NCBI RefSeq assembly: GCF_009754915.1
Contig: NZ_WPIK01000022.1
Location: 1-38,110 of the forward strand
Reading direction: 5' to 3'
Origin: Mucilaginibacter arboris
GTDB taxonomy: Bacteria > Bacteroidota > Bacteroidia > Sphingobacteriales > Sphingobacteriaceae
DNA length: 38,110 nucleotides
Positions 24 to 37,471 of the stretch are shown here, piece by piece; position 1 is the first letter of the stretch; every line of letters begins with the position of its first letter. A program made the position numbers and the translations under genes. Under the pieces are notes generated by a model. The model was not told where the DNA came from, made no database searches, and saw nothing but the letters and a program-made list of their open reading frames with translations.

Positions 24-68
24 GATGCTTCTTTTATCAGGCAAAAAAATGTACGATAAAAGAAGTAT
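24..68. repeat. Dispersed 12-mer repeat, inverted pair
   Basis: GATGCTTCTTTTATC (24-38) faces GATAAAAGAAGTAT (55-68); the second arm carries a one-base change in the core. The loop has an A-run. It lies just beyond the DinB-like stop codon on the minus strand, so it could also end that transcript. Confidence 0.85.
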
Positions 69-590: not shown

Positions 591-606
591 TGCTAAAAGA
601 AGCAAT
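591..606 (-). repeat. Dispersed 12-mer repeat, single copy, reverse
   Basis: TAAAAGAAGCA at 594-604. Read on the minus strand it is ATTGCTTCTTTTA, five bases (GCACT), then AAAAAA, which fits the core + N5 + A-run pattern. It sits about 36 bp upstream of the DinB-like start and 90 bp upstream of the next gene, a divergent region where a terminator is not expected. Confidence 0.8.
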
Positions 607-963: not shown

Positions 964-983
964 TGCTTCTTTTATCACCTAAA
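962..983 (+). repeat. Dispersed repeat overlapping a stop codon
   Basis: GATGCTTCTTTTA, five bases (TCACC), then TAAATTTT. The first GA of the repeat completes the TGA stop of the preceding gene. This is one of the best matches to the extended consensus. Confidence 0.9.
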
Positions 984-2021: not shown

Positions 2022-2052
2022 GATGCTTATTTTAATGCCATAAAAGAAGCAT
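2022..2052. repeat. Dispersed repeat, tight inverted pair
   Basis: GATGCTTATTTTA and TAAAAGAAGCAT are separated by only six bases, giving a 12-bp stem with one mismatch. It starts 8 bp after the SDR stop and would form a stable hairpin. There is no T-run directly after it, so it is not a canonical intrinsic terminator. Confidence 0.85.
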
Positions 2053-6166: not shown

Positions 6167-6564
6167 TTTTATATAAATTCTTTAGGGAAAGTATTTGCTT
6201 GCTGTATTGCTGATTTTGATCTTTCAAAAAAGCTTATTTCCGATCCCTAAGTATGGGTATGAAATACAATAAGGTTTAAAATGGTTCTATAAAACCCTTG
6301 TTTAAATTTCAGATGCTTCTTTTATCACCTGAAAATTAGTGTTTTGTGTTTGTCTTTTTTTTTACGATAAAAGAAGCATCAGTTATTATAAAAATTCCTG
6401 TTTTGCAGTTTTCAAGCCTGCTTATTATTGTGCTTTAACACTTTCTGCATGAAAGGCTTTTGTTGCTTTATATGTAACAATCCTATACTCTTTCCTTAAA
6501 TTCAGAATTAATACAAGCTTACGCCTCATATTTGTAGTTTAATCAAAATGTGATATTGTTTTTT
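6167..6564. other. Divergent intergenic region with repeat pair
   Basis: 398 bp between the DUF72 gene and the receptor gene. It contains the perfect 15-bp inverted repeat pair at 6312-6380 and otherwise AT-rich sequence that must hold both promoters. A CATATTTG near-match to the -7 box lies about 35 bp before the receptor ATG. Confidence 0.5.
6312..6380. repeat. Dispersed repeat, perfect 15-bp inverted pair
   Basis: GATGCTTCTTTTATC (6312-6326) and GATAAAAGAAGCATC (6366-6380) are exact reverse complements with a 39-base loop. Each arm is followed inward by five variable bases and an A-run. It lies between two divergent genes, so it terminates neither. Confidence 0.95.
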
Positions 6565-9077: not shown

Positions 9078-9103
9078 GATGCTTCTTTTAACAGGTAAAA
9101 ATA
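9078..9103 (+). repeat. Dispersed repeat, single copy, forward
   Basis: GATGCTTCTTTTA, five bases (ACAGG), then TAAAAATA. It lies 36 bp after the receptor stop codon. Confidence 0.9.
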
Positions 9104-9132: not shown

Positions 9133-9178
9133 AATGCTTCTTTTAGTACATAAATTTTTGTGTGCTAAAAGAAGCATT
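9133..9178. repeat. Dispersed repeat, tight inverted pair
   Basis: AATGCTTCTTTTAGTACA pairs with TGTGCTAAAAGAAGCATT (18-bp stem, one G-T pair) around a 10-base AT-rich loop. This is the longest hairpin of the family in the window. A strong transcript end is possible, but no T-run follows. Confidence 0.92.
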
Positions 9179-9368: not shown

Positions 9369-9464
9369 TTGCTTCTTTTATCACCTAAAAACTTGTAATT
9401 GCACTAACAATATAGAAATTAAAGCAGAGGCAACCACTGATTTTTTGCCGATAAAAGAAGCATC
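9369..9464. repeat. Dispersed repeat, wide inverted pair
   Basis: TTGCTTCTTTTATC at 9369-9382, followed by ACCTAAAAA, faces GATAAAAGAAGCATC at 9450-9464. The arms are 67 bases apart, which is long for a terminator hairpin. Confidence 0.9.
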
Positions 9465-10453: not shown

Positions 10454-10544
10454 ATGCTTCTTTTACCCTGTAAAAATTGTGTCTTCTTCGATCTGATAAA
10501 CAAAAAACCAAATGCTTGTAATTTTTAGGTGATAAAAGAAGCAT
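10454..10544. repeat. Dispersed repeat, inverted pair
   Basis: ATGCTTCTTTTA + CCCTG + TAAAAATT (from 10454) faces a reverse-oriented full unit ending at 10544, whose minus-strand reading is ATGCTTCTTTTA + TCACC + TAAAAAT. Both A-runs point inward. It lies upstream of both flanking genes. Confidence 0.92.
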
Positions 10545-11398: not shown

Positions 11399-11490
11399 AT
11401 GCTTCTTTTACAACATAAAAAACAGAAAGTTTATAAATGCTTTTAACCGCATCAAATAGAAACATAAAATACAGGCATAAAAGAAGCATT
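11399..11490. repeat. Dispersed repeat, wide inverted pair between convergent genes
   Basis: ATGCTTCTTTTA + CAACA + TAAAAAA at 11399-11422 faces TAAAAGAAGCATT at 11478-11490. Here the position between convergent gene ends would suit a shared terminator, unlike several other pairs. Confidence 0.9.
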
Positions 11491-15572: not shown

Positions 15573-15809
15573 TCAGGCTAAAGTACCTATCAGTTTAAAC
15601 CTGCTAAAAACAGCATTGGTATGCGGGGCATCCAACAATTCTTCGGTTAAATCCTGCCCGGCCCAATGCTCATAATGTTTTCCGTTTTTCCATAAACGGC
15701 TTTCGGTAACGTCATAAATCAAACCCTGATATGCCACCCAGATTTCCGGCTTGTCCTGCCCGTTGCGCAGTGCAAGCTGGTTTTTAGTATAAACAGGAAG
15801 CTTACTCAT
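15573..15809 (-). CDS. Cytochrome b5-like heme/steroid-binding domain protein
   Basis: 78-residue stand-alone cytochrome b5 domain. The core is WVAYQGLIYDVTESRLW followed by HYEHWAGQDLTEELLDAPH, with His45 or His48 and His63 as likely heme ligands; the family length fits. It is the last gene of the crtB operon, only 2 bp after the crtYcd stop, so it may serve electron transfer for carotenoid modification, for example to the CrtZ-type hydroxylase at 22 kb. That role is inference. Its ATG forms the end of a dispersed repeat copy (15807-15832). No membrane anchor is present. Confidence 0.85.
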   Translation of the reverse strand: MSKLPVYTKNQLALRNGQDKPEIWVAYQGLIYDVTESRLWKNGKHYEHWAGQDLTEELLDAPHTNAVFSRFKLIGTLA

Positions 15810-15832
15810 TTTTAGGTGGTAAAAGAAGCATC
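15807..15832 (-). repeat. Dispersed repeat bridging crtYcd stop and cytochrome b5 start
   Basis: On the minus strand: GATGCTTCTTTTA, CCACC, TAAAAATG. The core encodes the final residues DASFTT of the cyclase, TAA in the A-run is its stop codon, and the closing ATG is the start codon of the next gene. Confidence 0.92.
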
Positions 15833-16498
15833 GCGCTTTCTGTAGTATTCAAAAAAAGCAACATTCATCAGCAGTAAAGACATGAGGTAGAAATGATCTT
15901 CTACCGGAATCGTTCCAACTCTTACCGCTAAATTTTCGGCATTGTTATAACTTACAATTGGGATTGAAGTGAGGATGCCGTTTACGATATAAAAGGGTAT
16001 CAGCGATACCAGATAAGCCAGGAAAAAGCGATTGAGCCATTTTACTTTAAAAATAAATTGCAATAAAATAAGAAGTAAAAACAGTGTTCCAAAGTTAATT
16101 AGCGTGTAAAGCCGCTTATAAAAAAATAAAAGAATTGCTGCGGAAGTAATTAGAAGTAAAGCAGTAAATAGTTTAATGATCCAGTCAGGGATTTTCCATT
16201 TTACATAATAATTTAAGCATTCATAAATAAAAATGCAGGAGAACGGGATGGTTAAAAAGAACAAAATTTCTTCCAGCGGAAGCCTGAAAAAAGTAATCCC
16301 TAAAATATAGTTTGGGTTGAAAGACCATACTCCTTTTACCGTAAAAAAAACATCCCATGCTAAAAACAGTATTCCGGTAATGAATAAACCTGGCCAGATA
16401 AATTTCCAGCTTTTATGATAGGCAACCCGCTTATCAAAAGATAGCAGCAGCGGGAAAATAACGCTTAAAAAATCGATCAGCAGATAGGCATATTTCAC
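15812..16498 (-). CDS. crtYcd: Lycopene beta-cyclase, CrtYcd/CarR type
   Basis: 228-residue polytopic membrane protein with six or seven hydrophobic helices in two similar halves, the fused form of the heterodimeric CrtYc-CrtYd cyclase. The signature FFRLPLEEILFF (P-x-E-E) is near residue 90, the site thought to protonate lycopene. It cyclises lycopene to beta-carotene in the inner membrane. It starts with GTG at 16498, overlapping the upstream stop as GTGA. Neighbours are crtB two genes upstream and a cytochrome b5 domain downstream. The final six residues are encoded by a copy of the dispersed repeat, so the tail is probably not functionally conserved. Confidence 0.9.
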   Translation of the reverse strand: MKYAYLLIDFLSVIFPLLLSFDKRVAYHKSWKFIWPGLFITGILFLAWDVFFTVKGVWSFNPNYILGITFFRLPLEEILFFLTIPFSCIFIYECLNYYVKWKIPDWIIKLFTALLLITSAAILLFFYKRLYTLINFGTLFLLLILLQFIFKVKWLNRFFLAYLVSLIPFYIVNGILTSIPIVSYNNAENLAVRVGTIPVEDHFYLMSLLLMNVAFFEYYRKRDASFTT

Positions 16499-17040: not shown

Positions 17041-17873
17041 GAAATTACTTTCAGCTTTTGTTGTAAATAAGCCTGGAAATACAAAAGCATTTTCTGACTA
17101 TCAGATACGCGGATCCGTTTTTGCATAATAACTTCTGCAGGTGTTTCTTTAATCTTTTTAAAAAGTTCCAGGTAATAAACGTAAGCAATATAAACGCCTA
17201 ATTGTGCGCCGTCTGGCAGTTGTAAAATGCCTTCCAATGCATCGTCAAAATCTTTTTTAATGTCGGCTTCAATCAGTTTTTTTTCCTGCTCATTAAATTT
17301 GTTAAAATCAATTGCCGGAAAATAAGTTCGTCCGCGTTCTTCAAAATCAGCTTTAATATCCCGCAAAAAATTAATTTTCTGAAAAGCAGCGCCCAGGCTT
17401 CGTGCTTTTGGTACTAATTTTTGATACAATTGCTCGTCGTCTTCACAAAAAATCTTTAAGCACATCAGCCCGACAACTTCTGCAGAACCATAAATATAAT
17501 CTTTATAGCCATCGTTATTATAGCAGGTATTTTCTAAATCCATTTCCATAGACGTTAAAAAAGCATCAATTAAATGATTGTCTATCTGGTACTTGTTCAC
17601 CACATCCTGGAAAGATTGCAGTACAGGGTTCAGGCTTATTTTGCGTTCAATTGCTTCAAAAGTTACCTGCCTGAATTCTGCAATTAACTGAGCTTTATTA
17701 AAACCGTGAAATGTATCTACAATTTCATCCGCATATCGTACAAAACCATAAATGGCATAAATGGGATACCGGAAACGTTTAGCAAAAGTTTTAATTCCTT
17801 TGCTAAAAGAAGTACTGTACTTGTTGGTGATTATTTTACTGCACTCGAAACAAGTTTCGCTGTAGAGGTTCAT
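17037..17873 (-). CDS. crtB: Phytoene synthase
   Basis: 278-residue trans-isoprenyl diphosphate synthase (squalene/phytoene synthase family) that joins two geranylgeranyl diphosphates into phytoene. Both Mg-diphosphate binding motifs are intact: DEIVD (residues 49-53, in RYADEIVDTF) and DIKAD (residues 172-176, in NFLRDIKADFEERGRTYFP). STSFSKG near the N-terminus is also typical. First gene of the operon crtB - unknown - crtYcd - cytochrome b5, divergent from crtI across about 100 bp. A TACATTTG box lies 20 bp upstream of its start. Confidence 0.95.
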   Translation of the reverse strand: MNLYSETCFECSKIITNKYSTSFSKGIKTFAKRFRYPIYAIYGFVRYADEIVDTFHGFNKAQLIAEFRQVTFEAIERKISLNPVLQSFQDVVNKYQIDNHLIDAFLTSMEMDLENTCYNNDGYKDYIYGSAEVVGLMCLKIFCEDDEQLYQKLVPKARSLGAAFQKINFLRDIKADFEERGRTYFPAIDFNKFNEQEKKLIEADIKKDFDDALEGILQLPDGAQLGVYIAYVYYLELFKKIKETPAEVIMQKRIRVSDSQKMLLYFQAYLQQKLKVIS

Positions 17874-17973: not shown

Positions 17974-19461
17974 ATGGAGAAACAGCATATTGTAGTTATT
18001 GGTTCCGGTTTTGCCGGTTTGTCTGCTGCATCGGTTTTAGCTAAAGCGGGTTACCGCGTTACTTTGTTGGAAAAAAATGATCAGGCAGGCGGGCGTGCAC
18101 GGGTTTGGGAACAAGACGGGTTTAAGTTTGATATGGGCCCAAGCTGGTACTGGATGCCAGATGTTTTTGAAAATTATTTTGCTTTGTTCGGAAAGAAAAC
18201 TGCCGATTTTTATGATTTGAAACGATTAGATCCGGGCTATCAGATCTATTTCGGGAAAGACGATTTGATGGAGGTTCCTGCTTCGTTGGAAAAGTTAGGA
18301 CAGCTTTTTGAACGGGAAGAACCGGGAAGCAGTAAAAACCTGAAAGAATTTTTAAAACAGGCCGCTTACAAATACAAAGTTGGCATGGGCGAATACGTTT
18401 TTCGTCCCTCGCATTCTATTACAGAATTTATCGATTTTAGGCTGATTAAAGAAAGTTTCCGTATCCAAATGCTCACCAGCATGAGCAAGCATGTGCGTAA
18501 GTATTTTAAAAATCCAAAGCTGATTAAATTACTGGAATTTCCGGTTTTATTTCTGGGTGCTACCCCGCAAAATACACCGGCCATGTACAGCATGATGAAC
18601 TATGCAGATCTGGCTTTAGGAACCTGGTACCCGATGGGCGGAATGCACGAAATTGTAAAAGCAATGGTAAAAACAGCACAGGGGCAAGGCGTGGAAATCA
18701 AACTAAACCACGAAGTTTTAAAGATTGAAACAGAAAATGGCAAAGTAAAATACCTGATTACCAACAAAGGAATTGTTAATGCTGATTTTGTAATTGCCGG
18801 AGCAGATTATGAGCATGTTGAGCAGGCTTTATTAGACAAAGCCGACCGGAATTATGATCAGAAATATTGGGAAAGCCGCACAATGTCGCCTTCAAGCTTG
18901 TTGTTTTACATTGGATTAAATAAAAAAGTAGAAGGAATCCAACATCACAATTTATTTTTTGATGAAGATTTTGAATTGCATGCGGAAGAAATCTACACTA
19001 ATCCAAAGTGGCCGCAAAAACCTTTGTTTTATGTTTCCTGCACTTCAAAAACAGATACTTCTGTTGCTCCGGAAGGTTGCGAAAATTTATTCTTTTTAAT
19101 GCCGGTAGCACCGGGTTTAAAAGATGATGAAGCAACACGTGAACATTATTTTAATTTGATGTTAGACCGGTTTGAGCGAATAACTGCGCAGACGATCAGG
19201 GATGCAATTGTGGTAAAGAGAAGTTATGCGCATCGTGATTTCGTTGCAGATTATCATTCCTTTAAAGGTAATGCTTATGGTTTGGCTAATACTTTAAGAC
19301 AGACTGCCTTTTTTAAACCGGGGATGAAATCTAAAAAAATAAAAAATTTGTTGTTTACCGGCCAGTTAACCGTTCCCGGTCCCGGTGTACCGCCTTCGTT
19401 AATTTCCGGTCAGGTGGCAGCGCAGGAAGCTATAAAACTACTGGTAAAAGAAGCATCGTAA
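17974..19461 (+). CDS. crtI: Phytoene desaturase
   Basis: 495-residue FAD-dependent desaturase that converts phytoene to lycopene. It starts MEKQHIVVIGSGFAGLSAAS, the Rossmann dinucleotide motif, with the second half LLEKNDQAGGRARVWE and the family hallmark FDMGPSWYWMPDVF; the C-terminal bacterial-type phytoene dehydrogenase signature is around LLFTGQLTVPGPGVPPSLIS. A longer in-frame TTG start (17947) adds residues before the FAD motif that relatives do not need. It is divergent from crtB and ends in a shared terminator facing the ECF sigma gene. Its last codons (VKEAS) lie in a repeat copy. Confidence 0.95.
   Translation: MEKQHIVVIGSGFAGLSAASVLAKAGYRVTLLEKNDQAGGRARVWEQDGFKFDMGPSWYWMPDVFENYFALFGKKTADFYDLKRLDPGYQIYFGKDDLMEVPASLEKLGQLFEREEPGSSKNLKEFLKQAAYKYKVGMGEYVFRPSHSITEFIDFRLIKESFRIQMLTSMSKHVRKYFKNPKLIKLLEFPVLFLGATPQNTPAMYSMMNYADLALGTWYPMGGMHEIVKAMVKTAQGQGVEIKLNHEVLKIETENGKVKYLITNKGIVNADFVIAGADYEHVEQALLDKADRNYDQKYWESRTMSPSSLLFYIGLNKKVEGIQHHNLFFDEDFELHAEEIYTNPKWPQKPLFYVSCTSKTDTSVAPEGCENLFFLMPVAPGLKDDEATREHYFNLMLDRFERITAQTIRDAIVVKRSYAHRDFVADYHSFKGNAYGLANTLRQTAFFKPGMKSKKIKNLLFTGQLTVPGPGVPPSLISGQVAAQEAIKLLVKEAS
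19443..19458 (-). repeat. Dispersed repeat in the last codons of crtI
   Basis: GGTAAAAGAAGCATCG encodes VKEAS just before the stop. On the minus strand the core is followed by an AT-rich but not A-run sequence. Confidence 0.85.
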
Positions 19462-22525: not shown

Positions 22526-22566
22526 GGTAAAAGAAGCATCAGTTTTTGGCCGATGCTTCTTTTACC
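22526..22566. repeat. Dispersed repeat, inverted pair in the outward arrangement
   Basis: GGTAAAAGAAGCATC (22526-22540) and GATGCTTCTTTTACC (22552-22566) with an 11-base loop. It is the only pair in which the A-run sides point outward; the stem is perfect (15 bp). It lies between the crtZ start and the lpd end. Confidence 0.93.
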
Positions 22567-24198: not shown

Positions 24199-27100
24199 AT
24201 GCCTGCCTCATACTTCTTTTATCGCCTAAAAAAAGCAATTACCGTTTGTTGCCTTTTATTTTTAACGCTGCAGGTTTCTGCACAGCAAAAAATTGATGAG
24301 CAACTAATCAATCGGATCGATTCGCTTTCGGCAGCAGGTTTACCAAAATCAGCTTTAAAAGAAGTGGAGAAACTGGATGCATTATCGAGGAAAAACCATA
24401 ACCCTACGCAGCAAATCCGGGCAGCGGTTTACCGGATGAATTTACAGACTTACCTGGAAGAAAATGCTTTAACCGCCATTATCAACCGTTTAAAACTGGA
24501 TATTAAACAAGCTGCTTTCCCGGTAAAAGCTGTTCTGCAATCTGTTCTGGCAGAAATTTATTGGAAATATTACCAGCAAAACCGTTATCAGTTTGTGCGA
24601 AGAACGGCATTAGAAAAACCGGATGCTGATTTTGCCCGCTGGGATTTAAAAACGATTATCCGGGAAGTTGGAAATTTATACCAGCAATCCCTGCAAAACT
24701 TTCAGCTGGAGCAAAATACGCAAGTTTCGGTTTTAGAAGGCGTTTTGCAAGGCGATAAAAGCACACGCTATTTACGCCCAACTTTGTACGATCTGCTGTT
24801 GCAACGTGCATTGGATTTTTATCTGGGAGAAGAGCCCGACCTGCCAAAACCAAGATTAACTTTTTCCTTAAACGATCCGCGTTTGTTTGGAGATGATGCT
24901 GTTTTTATCCACCTAAAATTGGCAACAACTGATACCGCTTCTGTAACTTATCAGGGAATTAAACTATTGCAGCAGGCAACTATTTTTCACCTGCAAAAGA
25001 AGCATGCCGAAGCTTTGGCCGACCTGGATTTAAAGCGGTTGGAGTTTTTGTACCGCAAAGCTGCTTTCCCTCAAAAAGATTCGCTTTATGTTGATGCACT
25101 TCAAAAAGCAAACCGCGATTTTCAAGACAAACCAATTGCTGCCGATGCTTTGGTTTTGTTAGCGCAGTTTTACCAGCAAAAAGACAATTTGGTTACCGCA
25201 GTTGCATATCTGCAAAAAGCGATCAAAATTTATCCCGAAAGTTTGGGCGGAAAAAATGCAATGCTTCTTTTACAGCAAATAAATCAGCAAACATTATCCG
25301 CAGAAATCGAAAACGTGAATTTGCCGGACCAGCCCATTTTGGCGAAGCTGAATTATCAAAATTTGCAAAAAGCAAATGCTCAATTTTATCGCCTCAGCGA
25401 AGAAGATTTGAGTGAATTGAGAAAGCGGGAAAATCAGAATTACCGTTACCAGGATATTAATTTAAACACCGATGTGCTGGCTTTTGTTAAACAATTAAAA
25501 CCCGTTCAGCAGCAGCAAATCAGCCTTCCTGATCCAAAAGATTATAAGCAGCATTATTTAGAATTTAAAATTGATCCGCTCGAACCAGGTTTTTACGTGC
25601 TTCTTTTATCGAGGGAAAATTTGAATGATCGTGCCTTGATGAGTTTGTCTGGCTTTCGGGTAAGCAATTTGGCTTATGTGAGTCGGAAAAGCACAACAGG
25701 ATTAGAAATCAGAACTATAAACCGTACAACCGGTAGTCCAATTGAAGCTGTAAAAGTGGCTCTAATAAAAAATCCATTCGGAGAAACTGCCGGACAAGGA
25801 ATTTCTGATAAGAATGGTAAGACACTTTTCCAGTTAACTGAAAATATGAATTTCCAGATTCGTTTATATGGTTCCGGAGATTTTTATACCAATAATGACA
25901 GCTTTTACGGCAATAATTTTCTGCCGAGTGATATTTCGCGCGAGCAAACCATTTTATTTACCGACCGGCAATTGTACCGGCCGGGGCAAACCATTTACTT
26001 TAAAGGCTTGCAGATTTCTACTGCCAACCGTAAAAGTACAATTGTAAAAGATAAAGAAACCGAGGTAGAACTGAATGATAATAATGGTAAAAAGTTAAGC
26101 TCTGTAAAAGTTAAAACTAATGACTTTGGTACGTTTAGCGGTTCGTTTGTGTTACCGCAAAATATGCTAAACGGAAATGTGGTTTTAAAAACTTTCCAAG
26201 GTCAATTGTATGTTCAGGTTGAAGAATACAAACGTCCAACTTTTCAGCTCAATTTTGATGCGGTAAAAGAAGCATACCGTCCCGGAGATTCAGTTAGATT
26301 AAAAGGAAAAGTGCTGGCTTTTTCTGGTTTTGGTTTGGCGGATGCAAGTGTGAAAGTGAATATAAAACTTTATAAAACAAGAACGTATTCGGTTTATAAT
26401 CGCTATCAAAACAATGATTTGGCAGATTTTTTAAGTGATACAATTAAAACTAATTCACAAGGCGAGTTCATAATTAAGTTTAAAGCACAGCAGGAACAGC
26501 CAAATGTTGACCGATATTTTTACCAAATTTCTGCGGATGCAACCAACGCAAGCGGCGAAACGCATACAGCTTCTGCATCGGTAAATGTTGCCAAACAAGC
26601 TTTGCAAGTTCAGTTAAACCTTCCGCAAAAAATGCTTGCTGCAGATTCTTTAAAGTTTCCGGCAAGCTTAATGAATTTAAACGATCAGCTTCAAAACGGA
26701 AGTTTACAAGTTAAAATTTTCTCTTTAAAAAATCCAAATGAATACATCACCAAAAACCGTTTGTGGGAAAAACCAGACCAGTTTTTATGGACAAAAGACG
26801 AGTTTAAACAGCTTTTTCCAGCTTATGCCTGGAAAAACGAAGACGGACCAAGTTCCTGGCAGAAAGATCAATTGGTAGCAGAAATCGATTTAAAAGCGGA
26901 TAGCAACCATTTTTCGGTTTTAGATTTAGCTGCCTTAAAACAGCAGGATTCCGGTTTTTACCGCATAGAAACAGCAGCTAAAAACAGCAAAGGCGATACC
27001 GTTTCTATTGTTCGGTTCAGCCATTTTATCAATCAAAAAGCAGCGCCGGTAACGATGCAGGATTGGATAATCCCGTTGCTCACACGCGTTGTGCCCGGTG

Positions 27101-30100
27101 GCAAAGCTGTTTTTGGGTTGATGCCGGAAATTAATGTTTTGGCTGAAGTTTATGATGGCGATAAGATACTTTCTTCGGAATGGATAAAAACCGGGAAAAA
27201 AGAAGTCCGCAAAGAAATAGCTGTTCCTTTAAATGCAGACAATAATTTTCGTGTGCAGTTTTTAATGGTGAAAGATAACCGCGTTTATAATTTATCCCAG
27301 TCGTTACAAATCATCCGGAATATTAATCCATTAGCAGTCAGATTGGTTACTTTCCGCAACAAATTACAACCCGGCGAAAAAGAACAATGGAAATTACAGG
27401 TTTCCGGAAACGAAAAACAATCGGTTGAAATGCTGGCCGAGATGTATGATGCTTCTTTGGACGATCTGGTAATGAAACAAAGCTGGACTCAGCCAATACA
27501 AAATATAGACATTGAATTTCAAAGAAGCTATTTTGGTTGGAATAGCTATAATTTCATTAATAAAACAGTAAGTACCAGGCTTTTTTATACCATGGACAAT
27601 TTTGATTTGCTCATGCGAAAATATGAAACGTTAAACTTATTAGGTTTTGATTACTATGGCGGTTTTAATAATGCTTATCAGCAATTGGCAAATACATTAC
27701 GCGCCAATGCAATGCTGGCACAAACAAACAAGGATAATTATCTGAAAAGCGTTGCTGCTTATAAAAATGGTTTTGATATAACTGGAAGAATAATAGATGC
27801 AAAAGACAAAAGTGAGTTGCAAACGGTTACTGTAAAAATAAAAGGAACAGAAACTTACGTTTACACAGATATAAGCGGTCGATTTAAGTTACATGTACCG
27901 GAAAAAGCAACTTTAATAATTAGCTACGTCGGTTATATCACGCAGGAAATAATAGTTGTAAAAGGTGTTTCGCCGGTGATAAAACTCAAACCCAGCAGTA
28001 ATAGCTTAAATGAAGTTGTTGTAGTTGGTTACGGTACGCAGTATAAAAGAGATTTATCCGGTTCGGCGGCGAGTATTCGAATTGATGAACCGGTTGGAAA
28101 CGCTCAGTTAAACGAAGTCGTGAGTTTTGCTGCTGTAGAAAAGATATCTGCCAACGGAACTATCATTAGGAACGGAAAAATAGTTCAGCAAAGTGTGATG
28201 ATTAGGGGTAAAAGTTCTTTGCCTGCCGACCTAATTGGAAATATCCAAACAATTGATAATTATGGAGATCAGGCTAATGTAACAAGTAATAAAGCTATAA
28301 CAATCCGCAAAAACTTTAACGAAACCGCCTTTTTCTACCCGCAATTAAGAACCAACGAAAAAGGAGAAATCCTGATTGATTTTACCATGCCGGAAGCATT
28401 AACCAAATGGCGTTTTAAGGCTTTGGCACAAACGCAGGATTTAAAATTTGCTTATCTGGAAAACGAAGTCATTACCCAAAAGCAATTGATGATTTCTGCT
28501 AATATGCCGCGCTTTTTCCGGGAAGGCGATACCATTACGGTTTCTGCAATTGTGGCCAATCTCAACACCAAAAAAGTAGTGGTAAAAACAGTATTGCAAT
28601 TATTTAACGCAGTAAATATGCAGTCGGTTAAGCTGCTTGCAAATGCTGCGGAAGCAAACCAAACTATAGAAATTGAAGCAAACACCAATAAAGCAGTTTC
28701 TTTTCAGCTGATCATTCCGCAGGGTTTAGATGCGCTGACTTACCGTTTGACTGCCGATGCCGGCAAGTATAGCGACGGCGAAGAAAATACGGTTCCGGTT
28801 TTACCAAATGCTATGCTGGTAACCGAATCTGTACCGATGATGGTACGCCCAAACCAAACCAAAACTTTTACTTTAGAAAAACTGCTTCATCAAACCAGCA
28901 ATACGCTTCAAAATAAAACTTTAACATTGGAATATACAGAAAATCCGGCCTGGTACGCGGTGCAGGCTTTGCCATATTTAATGGAGTTTCCGTATGAATG
29001 TTCGGAGCAAACTTTTAACCGTTATTATGCCAATAGTCTGGCTACTTCGCTGGTAAAACGTTTGCCGGTTATTCAGCAGGTTTTTGACCGATGGAAAGCT
29101 TCTAATTCAACAGAACTACTTTCTAACCTCGAAAAAAACCAGGAACTCAAATCGGTTTTGATTGAAGAAACACCCTGGCTGCGCGATGCGCAGAACGAAT
29201 CGGAACAGAAAAAACGCATTGCTTTACTTTTCGATCTCAATAAAATGGGTAATGAATTGCAGTTGAATGTGAAAAAACTGAAGGAAATGCAATTGGCAGA
29301 TGGCAGTTTTCCATGGTTTACCGGTTTGCGTTCCGATCGTTACATTACACAATATATTCTGGCGGGAATTGGCCAGTTGTATGCTGCAAAAGCTGTTGAT
29401 GCTCAAAGTTCAGCTTTAAAAAACATTGCCGATAAAGCTTTAAATTATCTGGATGAGGAATTGATCAAACCAGAACATACTGTTTTTACCGGCAAAAAAT
29501 TGGTGCCTGCCAGTTTATCTTCCATAGAAATCCACGGTTGGTACACGCGCAGTTACTTCACTCAAAAACCAATAAGTGCAGCTTTAACAGCTCAATGGAA
29601 AAAGTATCAGCAAAAGGCAAATGCAGAATGGGTGCAGCGCAGCGTTTACGAAAAAGGCTTGATTGCTTTAACTTTTATACATTTTAAGCAGGTAAAAGAA
29701 GCACAGCAAATCGTTAAATCGCTGATAGAAACTTCGCAGCAATCCGAAGAAATGGGCATGTACTGGCCGAAGAACCAGTTGGGTTATTTCTGGTACCAGA
29801 ATCCGGTGGAAACGCAAAGTTTGCTGATCGAACTTTTTGCAGAAGCAGGCAAAACCAAGGAAACAGAAGAAATGAAAATCTGGCTGCTACGCAACAAGCA
29901 AACCAACAACTGGAAAACCACCAAAGCAACCGCTGCAGCTTGTTATGCGTTGTTGCTCCGCGGCGAGAATTGGCTGCAAACGCAAGGAAAAACCATGCTT
30001 CTTTTAGGGGGTAAAAACTTGTACGACCTGAAACCGGATTTAAAGCAAGATGCCGGGACCGGTTATTTAAAAACCAGCTGGCAGGAAGAACAAATTAAGC

Positions 30101-30645
30101 CAGAACTGGCGAAAGTGGAAGTGAAGAATCAAGGTAAAACCATCAGTTGGGGCGCTTTGTACTGGCAGTATCTGGAGAAGCTGGACAAAATTTCTGCTGC
30201 TAAAAACAGTATTAGTTTGGAAAGAAAATATTTTATCAGAAGCAGAAATAACAGCGGCGAAGTGCTGACCGCGGTTGACAAAAACCATCAGCCTAAAGTT
30301 GGCGATTTATTGAAGATTGTGGTTTACTTAAAAGCCGACCGTGATTTTGAGTATGTGCATTTAAAAGATATGCGCCCATCCGGAACAGAACCGGTTGATG
30401 TTTTATCTGGATATAAATACCAGGATGGCTTATATTATTACCAGGTAACCAAAGATGTGGCAACCAATTTCTTTATCAGCTACCTGCCAAAAGGAAACTA
30501 TGTTTTTGAATATGGTTTGCGGGTGGCGCAGCCTGGTAATTTTTCTACCGGCATCAGTTCAGTTCAAAGCATGTATGCGCCGGAATTTGGCGCACATTCG
30601 GAAGGTAAAAGATTGGAAACGCTGATTCAGGCAGATAAAAAATAA
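24199..30645 (+). CDS. Alpha-2-macroglobulin with SusC-like insert
   Basis: 2148-residue secreted or membrane-associated A2M-family protease trap. Order: signal peptide (to about residue 28, VCCLLFLTLQVSA); helical repeat region with a TPR-like stretch (about 30-350); macroglobulin domains including the MG2-like FTDRQLYRPGQTIYFKG near 590; then at about 1192-1350 an inserted carboxypeptidase-regulatory/SusC N-terminal domain (DITGRIIDAKDKSELQTVTV, LIISYVGYITQEIIV) followed by a TonB-box-like NEVVVVGYGTQ at 1271-1281 and a plug-like stretch; then the A2M core (ILIDFTMPEALTKWRFKALA near 1390) and thioester motif Cys1601-Ser-Glu-Gln1604, and a terpenoid-cyclase-like helical domain. The thioester should capture attacking proteases. 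No penicillin-binding pbpC partner is adjacent. Five exact repeat copies lie inside it. Confidence 0.92.
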   Translation: MPASYFFYRLKKAITVCCLLFLTLQVSAQQKIDEQLINRIDSLSAAGLPKSALKEVEKLDALSRKNHNPTQQIRAAVYRMNLQTYLEENALTAIINRLKLDIKQAAFPVKAVLQSVLAEIYWKYYQQNRYQFVRRTALEKPDADFARWDLKTIIREVGNLYQQSLQNFQLEQNTQVSVLEGVLQGDKSTRYLRPTLYDLLLQRALDFYLGEEPDLPKPRLTFSLNDPRLFGDDAVFIHLKLATTDTASVTYQGIKLLQQATIFHLQKKHAEALADLDLKRLEFLYRKAAFPQKDSLYVDALQKANRDFQDKPIAADALVLLAQFYQQKDNLVTAVAYLQKAIKIYPESLGGKNAMLLLQQINQQTLSAEIENVNLPDQPILAKLNYQNLQKANAQFYRLSEEDLSELRKRENQNYRYQDINLNTDVLAFVKQLKPVQQQQISLPDPKDYKQHYLEFKIDPLEPGFYVLLLSRENLNDRALMSLSGFRVSNLAYVSRKSTTGLEIRTINRTTGSPIEAVKVALIKNPFGETAGQGISDKNGKTLFQLTENMNFQIRLYGSGDFYTNNDSFYGNNFLPSDISREQTILFTDRQLYRPGQTIYFKGLQISTANRKSTIVKDKETEVELNDNNGKKLSSVKVKTNDFGTFSGSFVLPQNMLNGNVVLKTFQGQLYVQVEEYKRPTFQLNFDAVKEAYRPGDSVRLKGKVLAFSGFGLADASVKVNIKLYKTRTYSVYNRYQNNDLADFLSDTIKTNSQGEFIIKFKAQQEQPNVDRYFYQISADATNASGETHTASASVNVAKQALQVQLNLPQKMLAADSLKFPASLMNLNDQLQNGSLQVKIFSLKNPNEYITKNRLWEKPDQFLWTKDEFKQLFPAYAWKNEDGPSSWQKDQLVAEIDLKADSNHFSVLDLAALKQQDSGFYRIETAAKNSKGDTVSIVRFSHFINQKAAPVTMQDWIIPLLTRVVPGGKAVFGLMPEINVLAEVYDGDKILSSEWIKTGKKEVRKEIAVPLNADNNFRVQFLMVKDNRVYNLSQSLQIIRNINPLAVRLVTFRNKLQPGEKEQWKLQVSGNEKQSVEMLAEMYDASLDDLVMKQSWTQPIQNIDIEFQRSYFGWNSYNFINKTVSTRLFYTMDNFDLLMRKYETLNLLGFDYYGGFNNAYQQLANTLRANAMLAQTNKDNYLKSVAAYKNGFDITGRIIDAKDKSELQTVTVKIKGTETYVYTDISGRFKLHVPEKATLIISYVGYITQEIIVVKGVSPVIKLKPSSNSLNEVVVVGYGTQYKRDLSGSAASIRIDEPVGNAQLNEVVSFAAVEKISANGTIIRNGKIVQQSVMIRGKSSLPADLIGNIQTIDNYGDQANVTSNKAITIRKNFNETAFFYPQLRTNEKGEILIDFTMPEALTKWRFKALAQTQDLKFAYLENEVITQKQLMISANMPRFFREGDTITVSAIVANLNTKKVVVKTVLQLFNAVNMQSVKLLANAAEANQTIEIEANTNKAVSFQLIIPQGLDALTYRLTADAGKYSDGEENTVPVLPNAMLVTESVPMMVRPNQTKTFTLEKLLHQTSNTLQNKTLTLEYTENPAWYAVQALPYLMEFPYECSEQTFNRYYANSLATSLVKRLPVIQQVFDRWKASNSTELLSNLEKNQELKSVLIEETPWLRDAQNESEQKKRIALLFDLNKMGNELQLNVKKLKEMQLADGSFPWFTGLRSDRYITQYILAGIGQLYAAKAVDAQSSALKNIADKALNYLDEELIKPEHTVFTGKKLVPASLSSIEIHGWYTRSYFTQKPISAALTAQWKKYQQKANAEWVQRSVYEKGLIALTFIHFKQVKEAQQIVKSLIETSQQSEEMGMYWPKNQLGYFWYQNPVETQSLLIELFAEAGKTKETEEMKIWLLRNKQTNNWKTTKATAAACYALLLRGENWLQTQGKTMLLLGGKNLYDLKPDLKQDAGTGYLKTSWQEEQIKPELAKVEVKNQGKTISWGALYWQYLEKLDKISAAKNSISLERKYFIRSRNNSGEVLTAVDKNHQPKVGDLLKIVVYLKADRDFEYVHLKDMRPSGTEPVDVLSGYKYQDGLYYYQVTKDVATNFFISYLPKGNYVFEYGLRVAQPGNFSTGISSVQSMYAPEFGAHSEGKRLETLIQADKK
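24210..24234 (+). repeat. Dispersed repeat variant in a signal peptide
   Basis: ATACTTCTTTTA + TCGCC + TAAAAAAA, one core mismatch. It encodes SYFFYRLKK in the N-region of the macroglobulin signal peptide. Confidence 0.75.
25261..25273 (+). repeat. Dispersed repeat core within coding sequence
   Basis: ATGCTTCTTTTA, encoding MLLL in the macroglobulin; the downstream A/T pattern is weaker (CAGCA then AATAAA). Confidence 0.7.
25597..25620 (+). repeat. Dispersed repeat core within coding sequence
   Basis: GTGCTTCTTTTA + TCGAG + GGAAAAT, encoding VLLL; a short A-run is kept at the usual spacing. Confidence 0.7.
26252..26275 (-). repeat. Dispersed repeat core within coding sequence, reverse
   Basis: Minus strand: ATGCTTCTTTTA + CCGCA + TCAAAATT. 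On the coding strand it encodes VKEA. The A-run is conserved inside a protein gene. Confidence 0.75.
29680..29704 (-). repeat. Dispersed repeat core within coding sequence, reverse
   Basis: Minus strand: GTGCTTCTTTTA + CCTGC + TTAAAATG, encoding VKEA on the plus strand; spacing and A-run are kept. Confidence 0.75.
29995..30017 (+). repeat. Near-complete dispersed repeat within coding sequence
   Basis: ATGCTTCTTTTA + GGGGG + TAAAAA, encoding MLLLGGKN in the macroglobulin. Best in-gene match to the extended consensus. Confidence 0.85.
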
Positions 30646-31258: not shown

Positions 31259-31609
31259 ATGAAAATTTACGGCATCAAAAATTGCAACACGGTAAAAAAA
31301 GCATTGGACTGGCTGAAAGAAAATAACGTAGGATTCGAGTTTCACGATTTTAAAAAGGAAGGTGTTTCTTTGGAGAAACTGCAGGACTGGAGCAGCAAAG
31401 TTGGTTATGAAAAATTGCTGAATAAACAAGGATTAACCTGGAAACAATTGGATGCAGAAACAAAAGCCACAATCATCGGCGAAAAAGAAGCATTACAACT
31501 TTTATCTGCTAAAAACAGCATGATCAAAAGGCCGGTTTTAGAGTTTGAGAACGGTTTGGTCCTGGGCTTTCAGGAAGAAATGTATCAAAGGCTGTTTTTA
31601 CGGCATTGA
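31259..31609 (+). CDS. ArsC/Spx-family thioredoxin-fold protein
   Basis: 116-residue ArsC-like protein (YffB/Spx group). The N-terminal MKIYGIKNCNTVKKALDWL holds the active-site-like Cys in NCNTVKKA (a CxxC is not present), and the conserved SMIKRPVLEFENG (ArsC family R-P-x-V/L) lies at 89-101. Members reduce arsenate with glutathione or interact with RNA polymerase; YffB-type proteins have unclear roles. It follows the receptor remnant by 9 bp and is otherwise alone. Confidence 0.9.
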   Translation: MKIYGIKNCNTVKKALDWLKENNVGFEFHDFKKEGVSLEKLQDWSSKVGYEKLLNKQGLTWKQLDAETKATIIGEKEALQLLSAKNSMIKRPVLEFENGLVLGFQEEMYQRLFLRH

Positions 31610-31648: not shown

Positions 31649-31674
31649 GATGCTTCTTTTATCACCTGAAAATG
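31649..31674 (+). repeat. Dispersed repeat, single copy, forward
   Basis: GATGCTTCTTTTA + TCACC + TGAAAATG, ending just 4 bp before the left end of the palindromic element. Confidence 0.92.
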
Positions 31675-32019: not shown

Positions 32020-32045
32020 GATGCTTCTTTTATCACCTAAAAATG
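32020..32045 (+). repeat. Dispersed repeat, single copy, forward
   Basis: GATGCTTCTTTTA + TCACC + TAAAAATG, an exact match to the extended consensus, in the same orientation as the copy at 31649 across the palindromic element. Confidence 0.93.
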
Positions 32046-34429: not shown

Positions 34430-35554
34430 ATGAAATTACTTTCCTGTGCTGCTGCAAAAGGCAAGTTTTTGCCTGTGCTTCTTTTAGCCCTATTTTCTGC
34501 TAAGGCCTTGCCCGCGCAAAATAGGAGTAACAGTATAGAGGTTTCGCCTTATTACAATGTTTCCATGTTTTCTTCGGAAAAGAATAATTTACAGGGAAGT
34601 GCCTGGGGCGGCGATGTGATTTACCATATTGACATGCATGAAAATAAAACAGACTGGGTTAGGTTGTTACACGTGCAGGATGTAGGCATGGCGTTTTCTT
34701 ACCATAACATGCAGCAAGTTGCGTTAACAAGTAATCCAAGTACAAAAGGTTTTTTAGGAGATGCTTATGGTTTAACAGCTAAATTGAGCATTGCGCTTGC
34801 AAATGCAGGTAACACACAGTTATTGCTTACCCCTGGTTTTGGCTTTGTTTATTCAACTGAATCTTACTTTACCAATCAAAGTCCTTTGGTTGGCAGTCAT
34901 ATTAATCTGGCTTCAGAAATAGGGCTAAAAGTGGTAACATCAATATCAAAATTAACACGTATAGTAGCCGGGGTTGGGGTATTTCATTATTCTAATGGTG
35001 CTTATAGGCTGCCCAATAATGGTATTAATGCGTTAAATATATCAGCAGGTATTGTTCAAAACATCAATCAGCCTGGCCCTATCCACCCGGCTTCTGCATT
35101 TTCGGTTTATAAACATTCTTTTGAGTTTGGTGCCGATATTGGCCGTCGCGCAGTTTTTAAAAGCAAGGATGGTTATTATAAATCCGGAATTTACGCCGGG
35201 TACAATTATCGCGTTAATCCGGTTTTTAGCCTTAAAGCCGCAACAGATGCTGTTTATTATTACAAAACATTTGATATAAATAATTTTGCACAAACTTATC
35301 AGGGCAACGGTACATCCTACGATAAAGTAAGGGTTGGGCTAAGTTTAGGTGGAGATTTGTGGATAGGCAGGTTAGCACTAATGGCAAACTACGGATACTA
35401 CCTGCATTATAAAAGTTATTTACCCAACAAATATTACTGGACGGCAGGCTTTAAATATTATATAGCTACCTGGGTTGCTCTTTCAGCAAAAATGTATGTT
35501 AACCATACCGATGCAGATTTTGCAGGATTTGGCCTGCTGTTCCGTGTACATTGA
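34430..35554 (+). CDS. PagL-like lipid A 3-O-deacylase / acyloxyacyl hydrolase family
   Basis: 374-residue exported beta-barrel protein. A signal peptide spans about residues 1-29 (LLLALFSAKALPA, then QN). The catalytic signature of outer-membrane lipid A deacylases is visible as VGVFHYSNGAYRLPNNGIN (His-x-Ser-Asn), and alternating aromatic strands continue to a terminal GFGLLFRVH. It should remove the 3-linked acyl chain from lipid A in the outer membrane; it is about twice the length of Pseudomonas PagL, as is common for Bacteroidota relatives. The TGA stop (35552-35554) runs into a dispersed repeat, and another core (34476) is in the signal peptide. Confidence 0.85.
   Translation: MKLLSCAAAKGKFLPVLLLALFSAKALPAQNRSNSIEVSPYYNVSMFSSEKNNLQGSAWGGDVIYHIDMHENKTDWVRLLHVQDVGMAFSYHNMQQVALTSNPSTKGFLGDAYGLTAKLSIALANAGNTQLLLTPGFGFVYSTESYFTNQSPLVGSHINLASEIGLKVVTSISKLTRIVAGVGVFHYSNGAYRLPNNGINALNISAGIVQNINQPGPIHPASAFSVYKHSFEFGADIGRRAVFKSKDGYYKSGIYAGYNYRVNPVFSLKAATDAVYYYKTFDINNFAQTYQGNGTSYDKVRVGLSLGGDLWIGRLALMANYGYYLHYKSYLPNKYYWTAGFKYYIATWVALSAKMYVNHTDADFAGFGLLFRVH
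34475..34487 (+). repeat. Dispersed repeat core in a signal-peptide coding region
   Basis: GTGCTTCTTTTA encodes VLLL within the hydrophobic core of the deacylase signal peptide. No A-run follows, so it could be a chance match favoured by Leu-rich coding. Confidence 0.5.
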
Positions 35555-35578
35555 TACTTCTTTTACCGGCAAAAAATT
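35553..35578 (+). repeat. Dispersed repeat variant overlapping a stop codon
   Basis: GATACTTCTTTTA + CCGGC + AAAAAATT, one core mismatch. The GA completes the TGA stop of the deacylase gene. Confidence 0.85.
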
Positions 35579-36350: not shown

Positions 36351-36370
36351 TTATATGATAAAAGAAGCAG
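36351..36370 (-). repeat. Dispersed repeat supplying a start codon
   Basis: Minus strand: TGCTTCTTTTA + TCATA + TAAAAATT. On the plus strand ATGATAAAAGAAGCA gives the ATG and codons IKEA of the DUF2147 gene. A degenerate partner (AATAAAAGCATC) lies about 40 bp upstream. Confidence 0.85.
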
Positions 36371-36858: not shown

Positions 36859-36881
36859 ATGCTTCTTTTATCGACCCAAAA
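36859..36881 (+). repeat. Dispersed repeat, single copy, forward
   Basis: ATGCTTCTTTTA + TCGAC + CCAAAAC. It lies in the 38-bp gap between the DUF2147 and cupin genes, 7 bp after one stop and 10 bp before the next start. Confidence 0.85.
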
Positions 36882-36890
36882 CCTGTATCC

Positions 36891-37250
36891 ATGATCAAAG
36901 CTTACCAACTTATTACTGGGGTCGACGGGCATTCTCATATTCTAATCGGGCATGTAGCAGAAAATAGCATCAGCAAAGCCGTTTCCATTCATTTTAAAGA
37001 AACGCCTGCCGGTACTTTTTACAACTGGCACCCTGCACCAGCCACACAATTTGTGCTCACTTTAACCGGCACTTTAGAATTTACTGTTTTTAGCGGAGAA
37101 AAATTTACGTTAAAAACAGGCGAAGTTTTAATTGCAATGGACACGACCGGAAGTGGCCATACCTGGCAAATGTTGGGCAACGAACCCTGGAAACGCGCCT
37201 ACATAGTTTTTGCAGAAGGAGAAAATATTGATTTTGTAGCGAAAGTTTGA
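36891..37250 (+). CDS. Cupin-domain protein
   Basis: 119-residue single-domain cupin. A six-stranded pattern can be followed: AVSIHFKETPAGTFYNWHPA, QFVLTLTGTLEFTVFSGEKF, LKTGEVLIAMDTTGSGHTWQ and AYIVFAE. Metal-binding His residues of the two cupin motifs are only partly present (WHPA, GHTW), so an enzymatic role is uncertain and a regulatory or binding role is possible. It is 38 bp after DUF2147 in the same direction, with a dispersed repeat between them. Confidence 0.85.
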   Translation: MIKAYQLITGVDGHSHILIGHVAENSISKAVSIHFKETPAGTFYNWHPAPATQFVLTLTGTLEFTVFSGEKFTLKTGEVLIAMDTTGSGHTWQMLGNEPWKRAYIVFAEGENIDFVAKV

Positions 37251-37471
37251 ATAAAAATTCAAACGGCAAAGAGGTTTGTTAAAGAAGAAATTGATGTAGT
37301 AGAAACTTTTGTCGGCACTATTTATGTTAGAAGCGAATTCCTGATTTCGTATTGCTTATAAATTACTGCAATGCTTCTTTTATCAGCATAAAATCTTTTA
37401 ATTTAGGAAGAGGAAAAATCATTAAACTAATCTAATGTTAGTTTGTAAATATTATCTCAAATAATATTTTA
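37251..37471. other. Intergenic region with one dispersed repeat
   Basis: 221 bp; apart from the repeat at 37371-37395 no gene, RNA or clear promoter was seen. Confidence 0.5.
37371..37395 (+). repeat. Dispersed repeat, single copy, forward
   Basis: ATGCTTCTTTTA + TCAGC + ATAAAATC, about 77 bp upstream of the aldo/keto reductase start. Confidence 0.88.

Follow-up and report, generated by a model that had tools for sequence, protein, structure and literature searches.

Why should a single protein gene carry the same 11 letters five times over, in both orientations? The question arises in an alpha-2-macroglobulin-like gene of Mucilaginibacter arboris, within a stretch of 38,110 nucleotides (contig NZ_WPIK01000022.1, positions 1 to 38,110; "the window" below means this whole stretch). 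A first-pass annotation had counted five exact copies of TGCTTCTTTTA there, and both the count and the use of two orientations were borne out (Table 1). From the sequence evidence assembled below, we judge that the motif probably serves a genus of Sphingobacteriaceae as a DNA uptake (self-recognition) sequence. The wider proposal—that an uptake sequence saturating the genome arose independently for a third time, in Bacteroidota, with a receptor outside the type IV pilus, two coexisting core dialects, and a spreading mobile repeat as carrier of the tag—we regard as evenly balanced.

The present genome (G000; 4,163,231 bases in 83 contigs) was searched together with two others of the same genus (G001 and G002); L numbers denote sampled stretches and C numbers contigs. 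We distinguish a strict form A, the 11-mer TGCTTCTTTTA; a second form B, ATRCTGTTTTTA, matched within genes as T[AG]CTGTTTTTA; and a form C, TACTTCTTTTA. Coding labels follow a longest-open-reading-frame (ORF) rule with a minimum of 80, 100, or 120 amino acids (aa), depending on the analysis, and no gene caller.

Form A occurs 2223 times in G000 (1139 forward, 1084 reverse), against six occurrences (5 and 1) of the reversed pattern, and 2344 and 1363 times in the two same-genus genomes; 38 further relatives hold 0–25 copies each. Among 395 genomes of the phylum, a sample to which G001 and G002 do not belong, the 12-letter word ATGCTTCTTTTA reaches 1947 copies in G000 and at most 14 in each of the other 394. 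Form B is present in 714, 856, and 786 copies in G000, G001, and G002, and in no more than 31 in any of the other 198 family genomes searched. Hundreds to thousands of lineage-limited copies, as counted here, are a hallmark of uptake sequences. An exact-match scan matched at least 53 stretches, and all 53 listed come from G001 and G002. The consensus pattern had one match among 2.9 million viral contigs, which is weak evidence because viruses of this genus may be absent from that set. Sites lie on both strands, within and between genes, at about 0.8 per kb, and the window alone holds 30 form A copies.

A survey for dialects elsewhere, from which low-complexity words and words with fewer than four copies were filtered, covered 40 stretches from outside the genus, five of them all N (L062, L067, L071, L073, and L136) and three short (L066, L122, and L137). 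Among the top words of the 35 stretches with sequence, no dispersed 10-mer like that of G000 was found. Strong words in L118, L122, L123, L127, L131, and L132 were rejected as tandem, periodic, or clustered, that of L120 as clustered, and that of L130 as part of a repeated long sequence. Applied to 20 stretches of the genus itself, the same method ranked form A first in 17, form B in L082, form C in L090, and an unrelated word in L089.

The site is a bipartite unit: the 12-letter word, seven loosely conserved bases, and then an A/T run at positions 19–22, with a core consensus of AT(G/A)CTTCTTTTA or AT(G/A)CTGTTTTTA. In a logo of 214 form A copies from a 438-kb sample of G000, where the 11-mer is invariant because it was the search word, position 0 is A in 86%, position 12 is Y in 88%, and position 13 is C in 75%; bases are then loose to position 18, positions 19–22 are A or T (G or C at 0 to 5%), and position 23 is T in 76%. 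Among 484 copies with the forms pooled, 225 have AAAA as the run, 79 have TTTT, and 131 have a mixture of A and T, whereas the run is interrupted in 49; it accompanies 195 of 229 coding copies. The 438-kb sample holds 184 exact 12-mers on its two strands, against 0.29 expected, and 130 one-mismatch neighbors, among which a G-to-A change of the third base is commonest (34). The reversed control yields no exact copy and four with one mismatch. Form B differs from form A by two adjacent bases. It has 39 copies beside the 184 of form A, and the single-step intermediates number 17 and 5 (1.2 and 0.25 expected). We treat form B as the same kind of site because it has the same distant A/T run, which is found at 77 of 94 of its coding copies.

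Within the macroglobulin gene, five sites of form A, five of form B, and one of form C make 11. Five form A copies far exceed chance (about 0.009 expected from the reversed-pattern control; P ~5e-13) but are ordinary against the genome's own coding density (1.36 expected; P = 0.013 before correction for gene number), so the gene is typical of its genome, not special. The annotation had confined the copies to two peptide outputs. This is correct for form A in this gene (MLLL, VLLL, VKEA, VKEA, and MLLL) and wrong for all 11 sites, which read LLL, KEA, AVF/TVF, KNS, KTV, and YFFY; the restriction is a small-sample effect, as form A uses four frames in the 438-kb sample. An A-run had been credited to three copies; an A/T run at positions 19–22 is found in all five, as AAAA in four. 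All five form A sites align without gaps to the orthologues of genomes G015 (52% identical) and G014 (37%), neither of which carries the motif and both of which have different residues and codons at these sites; the copies therefore look substitution-made, with the protein altered as a result. The remaining orthologues placed are partial and cover the last two form A sites only.

Form A coding copies in the 438-kb sample number 77: 31 of VKEA type, 22 ASF, 13 KRS, and 11 LLL. The fifth open frame (CFFY) is unused among them, and the sixth holds a stop codon. Codon choice had been set beforehand as the test that could refute selection on DNA, and it came out in favor. With expectations drawn from codon usage in 441 ORFs of 27 G000 stretches, the motif spelling was used at 43 of 62 KEA opportunities (4.98 expected), 15 of 24 for KRS (0.35), 16 of 60 for LLL (0.25), and 31 of 35 for ASF (1.39), 8.6- to 65-fold above expectation; CFFY gave 0 of 1, and the reversed-motif controls gave 1 of 15 (0.21 expected). 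Stretches of G001 and G002 show the same excess (14/16, 2/5, 7/28, and 11/15). By contrast, 18 family stretches from other genera, a set that excludes N-filled, shorter, and 15 class-level stretches, gave 1/10, 0/2, 0/22, and 0/6 for KEA, KRS, LLL, and ASF, or one site in 40 opportunities.

Conservation between species follows the same anatomy. We compared sites in 30 alignment blocks (73,635 aligned bases; blocks under 300 bp dropped), which are BLAST matches, not all of proven orthology. Seen from G000, 58 comparisons (38 distinct sites, some of them aligned to G001 as well as G002, so that the comparisons are not independent) comprise 45 that keep a form, 9 that are substituted, and 4 at gaps; seen from G001 and G002, 45 are kept, 16 substituted, and 8 at gaps. 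Unshared sites thus differ by substitution in 9 of 13 and 16 of 24 cases, and substitution-made coding copies are a further hallmark of uptake sequences found here. Forms A and B were never swapped in the 58 comparisons; swaps between A and C, and between two spellings of B, were seen. The 11-mer is identical across species in 38 of 58 cases versus 728 of 6756 local control 11-mers. Coding copies are identical in 18 of 25 versus 667 of 5934 (11.2%), six times more often than nearby DNA, and intergenic copies in 20 of 33 versus 61 of 822 (7.4%). By position, identity is 0.83–0.98 at 0–11, 0.60–0.82 at 12–18, 0.91–0.96 at 19–22, and 0.57–0.92 in the flanks, a double peak that reads as the footprint of one bipartite site.

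The first-pass annotation took its five copies as an argument for recognition of double-stranded DNA and for selection within coding sequence. Codon bias, together with interspecies conservation of core and A/T run, gives good support to a DNA-level, orientation-independent role; reading of the double strand by a protein is what we infer beyond that. The same codon bias and conservation agree with selection, which with these data is inseparable from molecular drive, that is, biased uptake plus recombination.

Two features of genomic placement also match uptake sequences. Both orientations are used without replication polarity: Relative to GC skew, sites divide 236:234 over 51 segments of 10 kb and 69:83 in 18 strong-skew segments. 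Depletion in recently acquired elements is seen on one contig only, C8 of G000 (78.5 kb; L089, L090, L146, and L147), which has 5 sites against 72.7 expected. Scanning 20 of its 55 ORFs of at least 150 aa against Pfam (3 of the 20 without a family) identified a relaxase, a type IV secretion system coupling protein, conjugative-transposon TraM, and a TraG P-loop ATPase, alongside type I restriction genes, a reverse transcriptase, DNA polymerase III alpha, and the exonuclease VII large subunit.

Of the sequence-level marks of uptake sequences tested here, the motif shows all but even spacing; readings as a polar signal, as a promoter, or as the product of insertion alone fail. Mechanistically, a surface or periplasmic receptor would read the core and the A/T run, roughly one helical turn away, through the narrow minor groove. 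Tagged fragments would be imported preferentially through ComEC, DprA protecting the incoming strand; untagged alleles would therefore give way, through recombination, to tagged ones, and the tag would accumulate by molecular drive. ComEC (PF03772) and DprA (PF02481) are encoded in all three genomes of the genus. The receptor probably lies outside the type IV pilus, because no PilB/PilT-type ATPase scores above the cut-off in these genomes.

Uptake sequences have been described for Neisseriaceae and Pasteurellaceae, both with type IV pilus uptake. The uptake signal sequence (USS) of Haemophilus influenzae and other Pasteurellaceae resembles the present motif in its short rigid core and A/T runs, and its copies lie both in and between genes. 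The motif differs from it in its unrelated core, in having one A/T run instead of two, in its second core form, and in its phylum, and the present genomes are without a type IV pilus ATPase above the cut-off. The logo matches neither GCCGTCTGAA nor AAGTGCGGT, the cores of the DUS (the DNA uptake sequence of Neisseriaceae) and USS families; the DUS is unrelated in sequence and has no distant A/T run. HIP1 (highly iterated palindrome 1) of cyanobacteria likewise saturates genomes and occurs in genes, but it is a palindromic octamer, whereas the motif is nonpalindromic and bipartite. We describe the motif as apparently working like a DNA uptake sequence and file it in neither known family, because the class is defined by uptake and neither family's core nor the pilus ATPase is present.

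Copy numbers and dialects invite comparison all the same. H. influenzae has 1465 exact USS cores per genome, or 2206 by motif search (PMC7811141). Neisseriaceae DUS number thousands of copies, form dialects that follow lineage, have a stop codon in one frame in most cases, and are read by the pilin ComP; S. muelleri carries two DUS dialects within one genome, to which the two core forms here are comparable (PMC3630211). Integrative conjugative elements of Neisseriaceae have an atypical DUS distribution that has been used to find such elements, a pattern to which we liken the depletion of C8 (PMC7371117). In Riemerella, competence without pilus homologues requires ComEC, DprA, RecA, and ComF, and a DUF5689 protein is required for transformation of R. 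anatipestifer (PMC8459023). DNA of R. columbina outcompetes foreign DNA in its own transformation, and the putative DUS listed for it are A/T-rich low-complexity words only, with function left open (PMC7965970). Riemerella thus resembles the present case in being a pilus-less member of Bacteroidota and differs in its A/T-rich words and in DUF5689.

Several observations weigh against interpreting the motif as an uptake sequence. ComEC and DprA also occur in genomes without the motif: Beyond the genus, 20 of 22 genomes searched have the former and 2 of 2 the latter; these genes are nonspecific and support the possibility only. No PF00437 ATPase exceeded the cut-off of 24.9 bits in G000–G002 (sub-threshold scores of 22.9 in G000 and 19.9 in G002), so neither known receptor route applies; the family matched strongly in 4 of 10 other genomes searched, and pilins themselves were not searched for. 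DUF5689 was not found in G000–G002, and to our knowledge no competence is known for this genus. Spacers are about seven times denser in sites than coding sequence, part of this being carried by the mobile repeat described below: 0.51 sites per kb in coding sequence versus 2.33 in divergent, 3.79 in tandem, and 4.16 in convergent spacers. Site clusters are not spaced more evenly than random (coefficient of variation 0.85 versus 0.89 ± 0.04 in 300 random placements); spacing more even than random is reported for some uptake sequences, and we do not treat it as defining. A chromosomal protein site, too, could be old, substitution-made, and missing from newly acquired DNA.

That last point belongs to a broader alternative, in which the motif is read inside the cell by a chromosome protein (a nucleoid-associated or condensation factor), or is a HIP1-like word, and is kept by ordinary selection. 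We consider this unlikely, even though it would account for a sequence conserved as DNA, an A/T run set off from the core by about one turn, sites on both strands, and a preference for spacers, and a slowly accumulated site would likewise be missing from the conjugative contig. Some 2900 sites (the form A and form B totals), with protein-altering ones inside genes, would be a heavy architectural cost; architectural chromosome proteins usually tolerate loose sites, unlike the motif, whose exact 12-mers outnumber all one-mismatch copies; and HIP1 is a palindrome, which the motif is not. A polar signal for recombination or chromosome segregation, like Chi or KOPS (FtsK orienting polar sequences), is barely credible: High copy number and a nonpalindromic core would suit it, but Chi/KOPS-type signals are strand-biased, and no such bias appears genome-wide or against GC skew. 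Transcription terminators or promoters we think very improbable. Inverted pairs could form hairpins at gene ends, and they are in excess: Among 72 neighboring pairs under 150 bp, 35 are +−, 18 −+, 10 −−, and 9 ++, with +− spacings grouped at 17, 31, and 73–82 bp and density highest between convergent genes. Yet for 376 of the 485 sites sampled in G000 the nearest 110 bp contain no inverted partner, nearly half of the sites (229 of 485) fall within called ORFs, and the promoter version fails on divergent spacers being the poorest of all spacers. Termination may still be a secondary use, a role that the title of PMC1852404 suggests for known uptake sequences.

Scattering by a mobile repeat—a miniature inverted-repeat transposable element (MITE), or a repetitive extragenic palindrome (REP) or REP doublet forming a hairpin (REPIN) moved by a REP-associated tyrosine transposase (RAYT)—has a concrete candidate. 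An element of ~150 bp, bounded by CTGTTTAAATT ends and enclosing two inverted motifs, is present in G001 (L142, G001:C35, about 2280–2430; MITE-like) at a position spanned by 3 bp in G002; G000 probably lacks a second G001 element, and similar copies of ~90–180 bp are dispersed, including a MITE-like element at window 10455–10543. Some intergenic inverted pairs thus lie inside a mobile element, as with REP/REPIN and MITE families. All three genomes of the genus have Y1_Tnp genes, potential RAYTs; the larger one in G000 (L178, G000:C56, about 900–2000) has six motif copies in the 3.3 kb around it, one inverted pair among them, a possible RAYT-like association. But Y1_Tnp genes also occur in four of five other genera searched (G003, G005, G014, and G015), all motif-free, and the G001 gene (L177) has three motif copies around it and no close pair. 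The CTGTTTAAATT ends lie near few sites (13 of 485 sampled sites for G000, 15 of 126 for G001, and 1 of 109 for G002), and most sites are unpaired. One intergenic element, and probably one more, shows clean insertion, but the coding sites compared, the five gapless macroglobulin sites, do not, and unshared sites mostly reflect substitutions. At least one other inverted pair is common to all three species with spacings of 31, 31, and 43 bp, a misfit with recent insertion. The repeat is a minority passenger in these samples: Insertion-only spread is ruled out for the coding copies examined and holds for a minority of intergenic pairs, and we rate the repeat as quite improbable as the source of the motif.

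If the motif is an uptake sequence, it would be a third case, in a phylum where pilus-less transformation is known, and would make it possible to ask which receptor is required and whether a genome can be saturated by uptake drive alone. Competence would then be predicted for the genus, here represented by genome sequences only, and the tag could serve to recognize foreign DNA in those genomes. No published report of such a motif or of Bacteroidota uptake sequences was found in a search outside which most subscription journals fell.

Table 1. Motif cores in the window and the gene that prompted the analysis. Positions are those of the window; readings are the peptides encoded at the site.
Feature	Position	Strand	Reading	Remarks
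Alpha-2-macroglobulin-like ORF	24199..30645	+		2148 aa; 11 motif copies; Pfam MG2, A2M, bMG10
Sites within this ORF
Form C	24211..24221	+	YFFYR	TACTTCTTTTA
Form B	24897..24907	+	DAVFI	
Form A	25262..25272	+	MLLLQ	A/T run at 19-22
Form A	25598..25608	+	VLLLS	AAAA run
Form A	26264..26274	-	VKEAY	AAAA run
Form B	26979..26989	-	AKNSK	no A/T run
Form B	28583..28593	-	VKTVL	
Form B	29478..29488	+	HTVFT	
Form A	29693..29703	-	VKEAQ	AAAA run
Form A	29996..30006	+	MLLLG	AAAA run
Form B	30201..30211	-	AKNSI	
Sites elsewhere in the window
Form A	26..36	+		inverted pair with 57-67
Form C	57..67	-		inverted pair with 26-36
Form A	594..604	-		
Form A	964..974	+		
Form A	2041..2051	-		
Form A	6314..6324	+		inverted pair
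Form A	6368..6378	-		inverted pair
Form A	9080..9090	+		
Form A	9135..9145	+		inverted pair
Form A	9166..9176	-		inverted pair
Form A	9370..9380	+		inverted pair
Form A	9452..9462	-		inverted pair
Form A	10455..10465	+		with 10533-10543, ends of dispersed ~90 bp repeat
Form A	10533..10543	-		other end of dispersed ~90 bp repeat
Form A	11400..11410	+		inverted pair
Form A	11478..11488	-		inverted pair
Form B	15605..15615	-		
Form A	15820..15830	-		
Form B	16361..16371	-		no A/T run
Form C	17804..17814	-		
Form B	18668..18678	-		
Form A	19445..19455	-		
Form A	22528..22538	-		inverted pair
Form A	22554..22564	+		inverted pair
Form B	31510..31520	-		no A/T run
Form A	31651..31661	+		
Form A	32022..32032	+		
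Form A	34476..34486	+		no A/T run
Form C	35555..35565	+		
Form A	36359..36369	-		
Form A	36860..36870	+		
Form B	37082..37092	+		
Form A	37372..37382	+		

The macroglobulin gene has some peculiarities of its own. A CarboxypepD-reg domain lies at aa 1194–1275, and the region from aa ~1190 to ~1380 (window 27778–28340), just before the A2M domain, has matches in many open frames some 1000–1200 aa long, the size of SusC-type receptors. Its matches in G001 (G001:C10 18086–20010, L138) jump from aa 109 to aa 1601, through either a large deletion or an assembly fault in this metagenome-assembled genome.

Other repeats were encountered along the way. A GC-rich, REP-like repeat of ~100 bp (L091 10863–10970) is found at many positions in both G001 and G002 and at several in the G000 sample. 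Heptamer-based tandem arrays of the GTTTCAGGTTTC type lie at L118 17485–17558 and L122 9286–9485, in two other families of the class.

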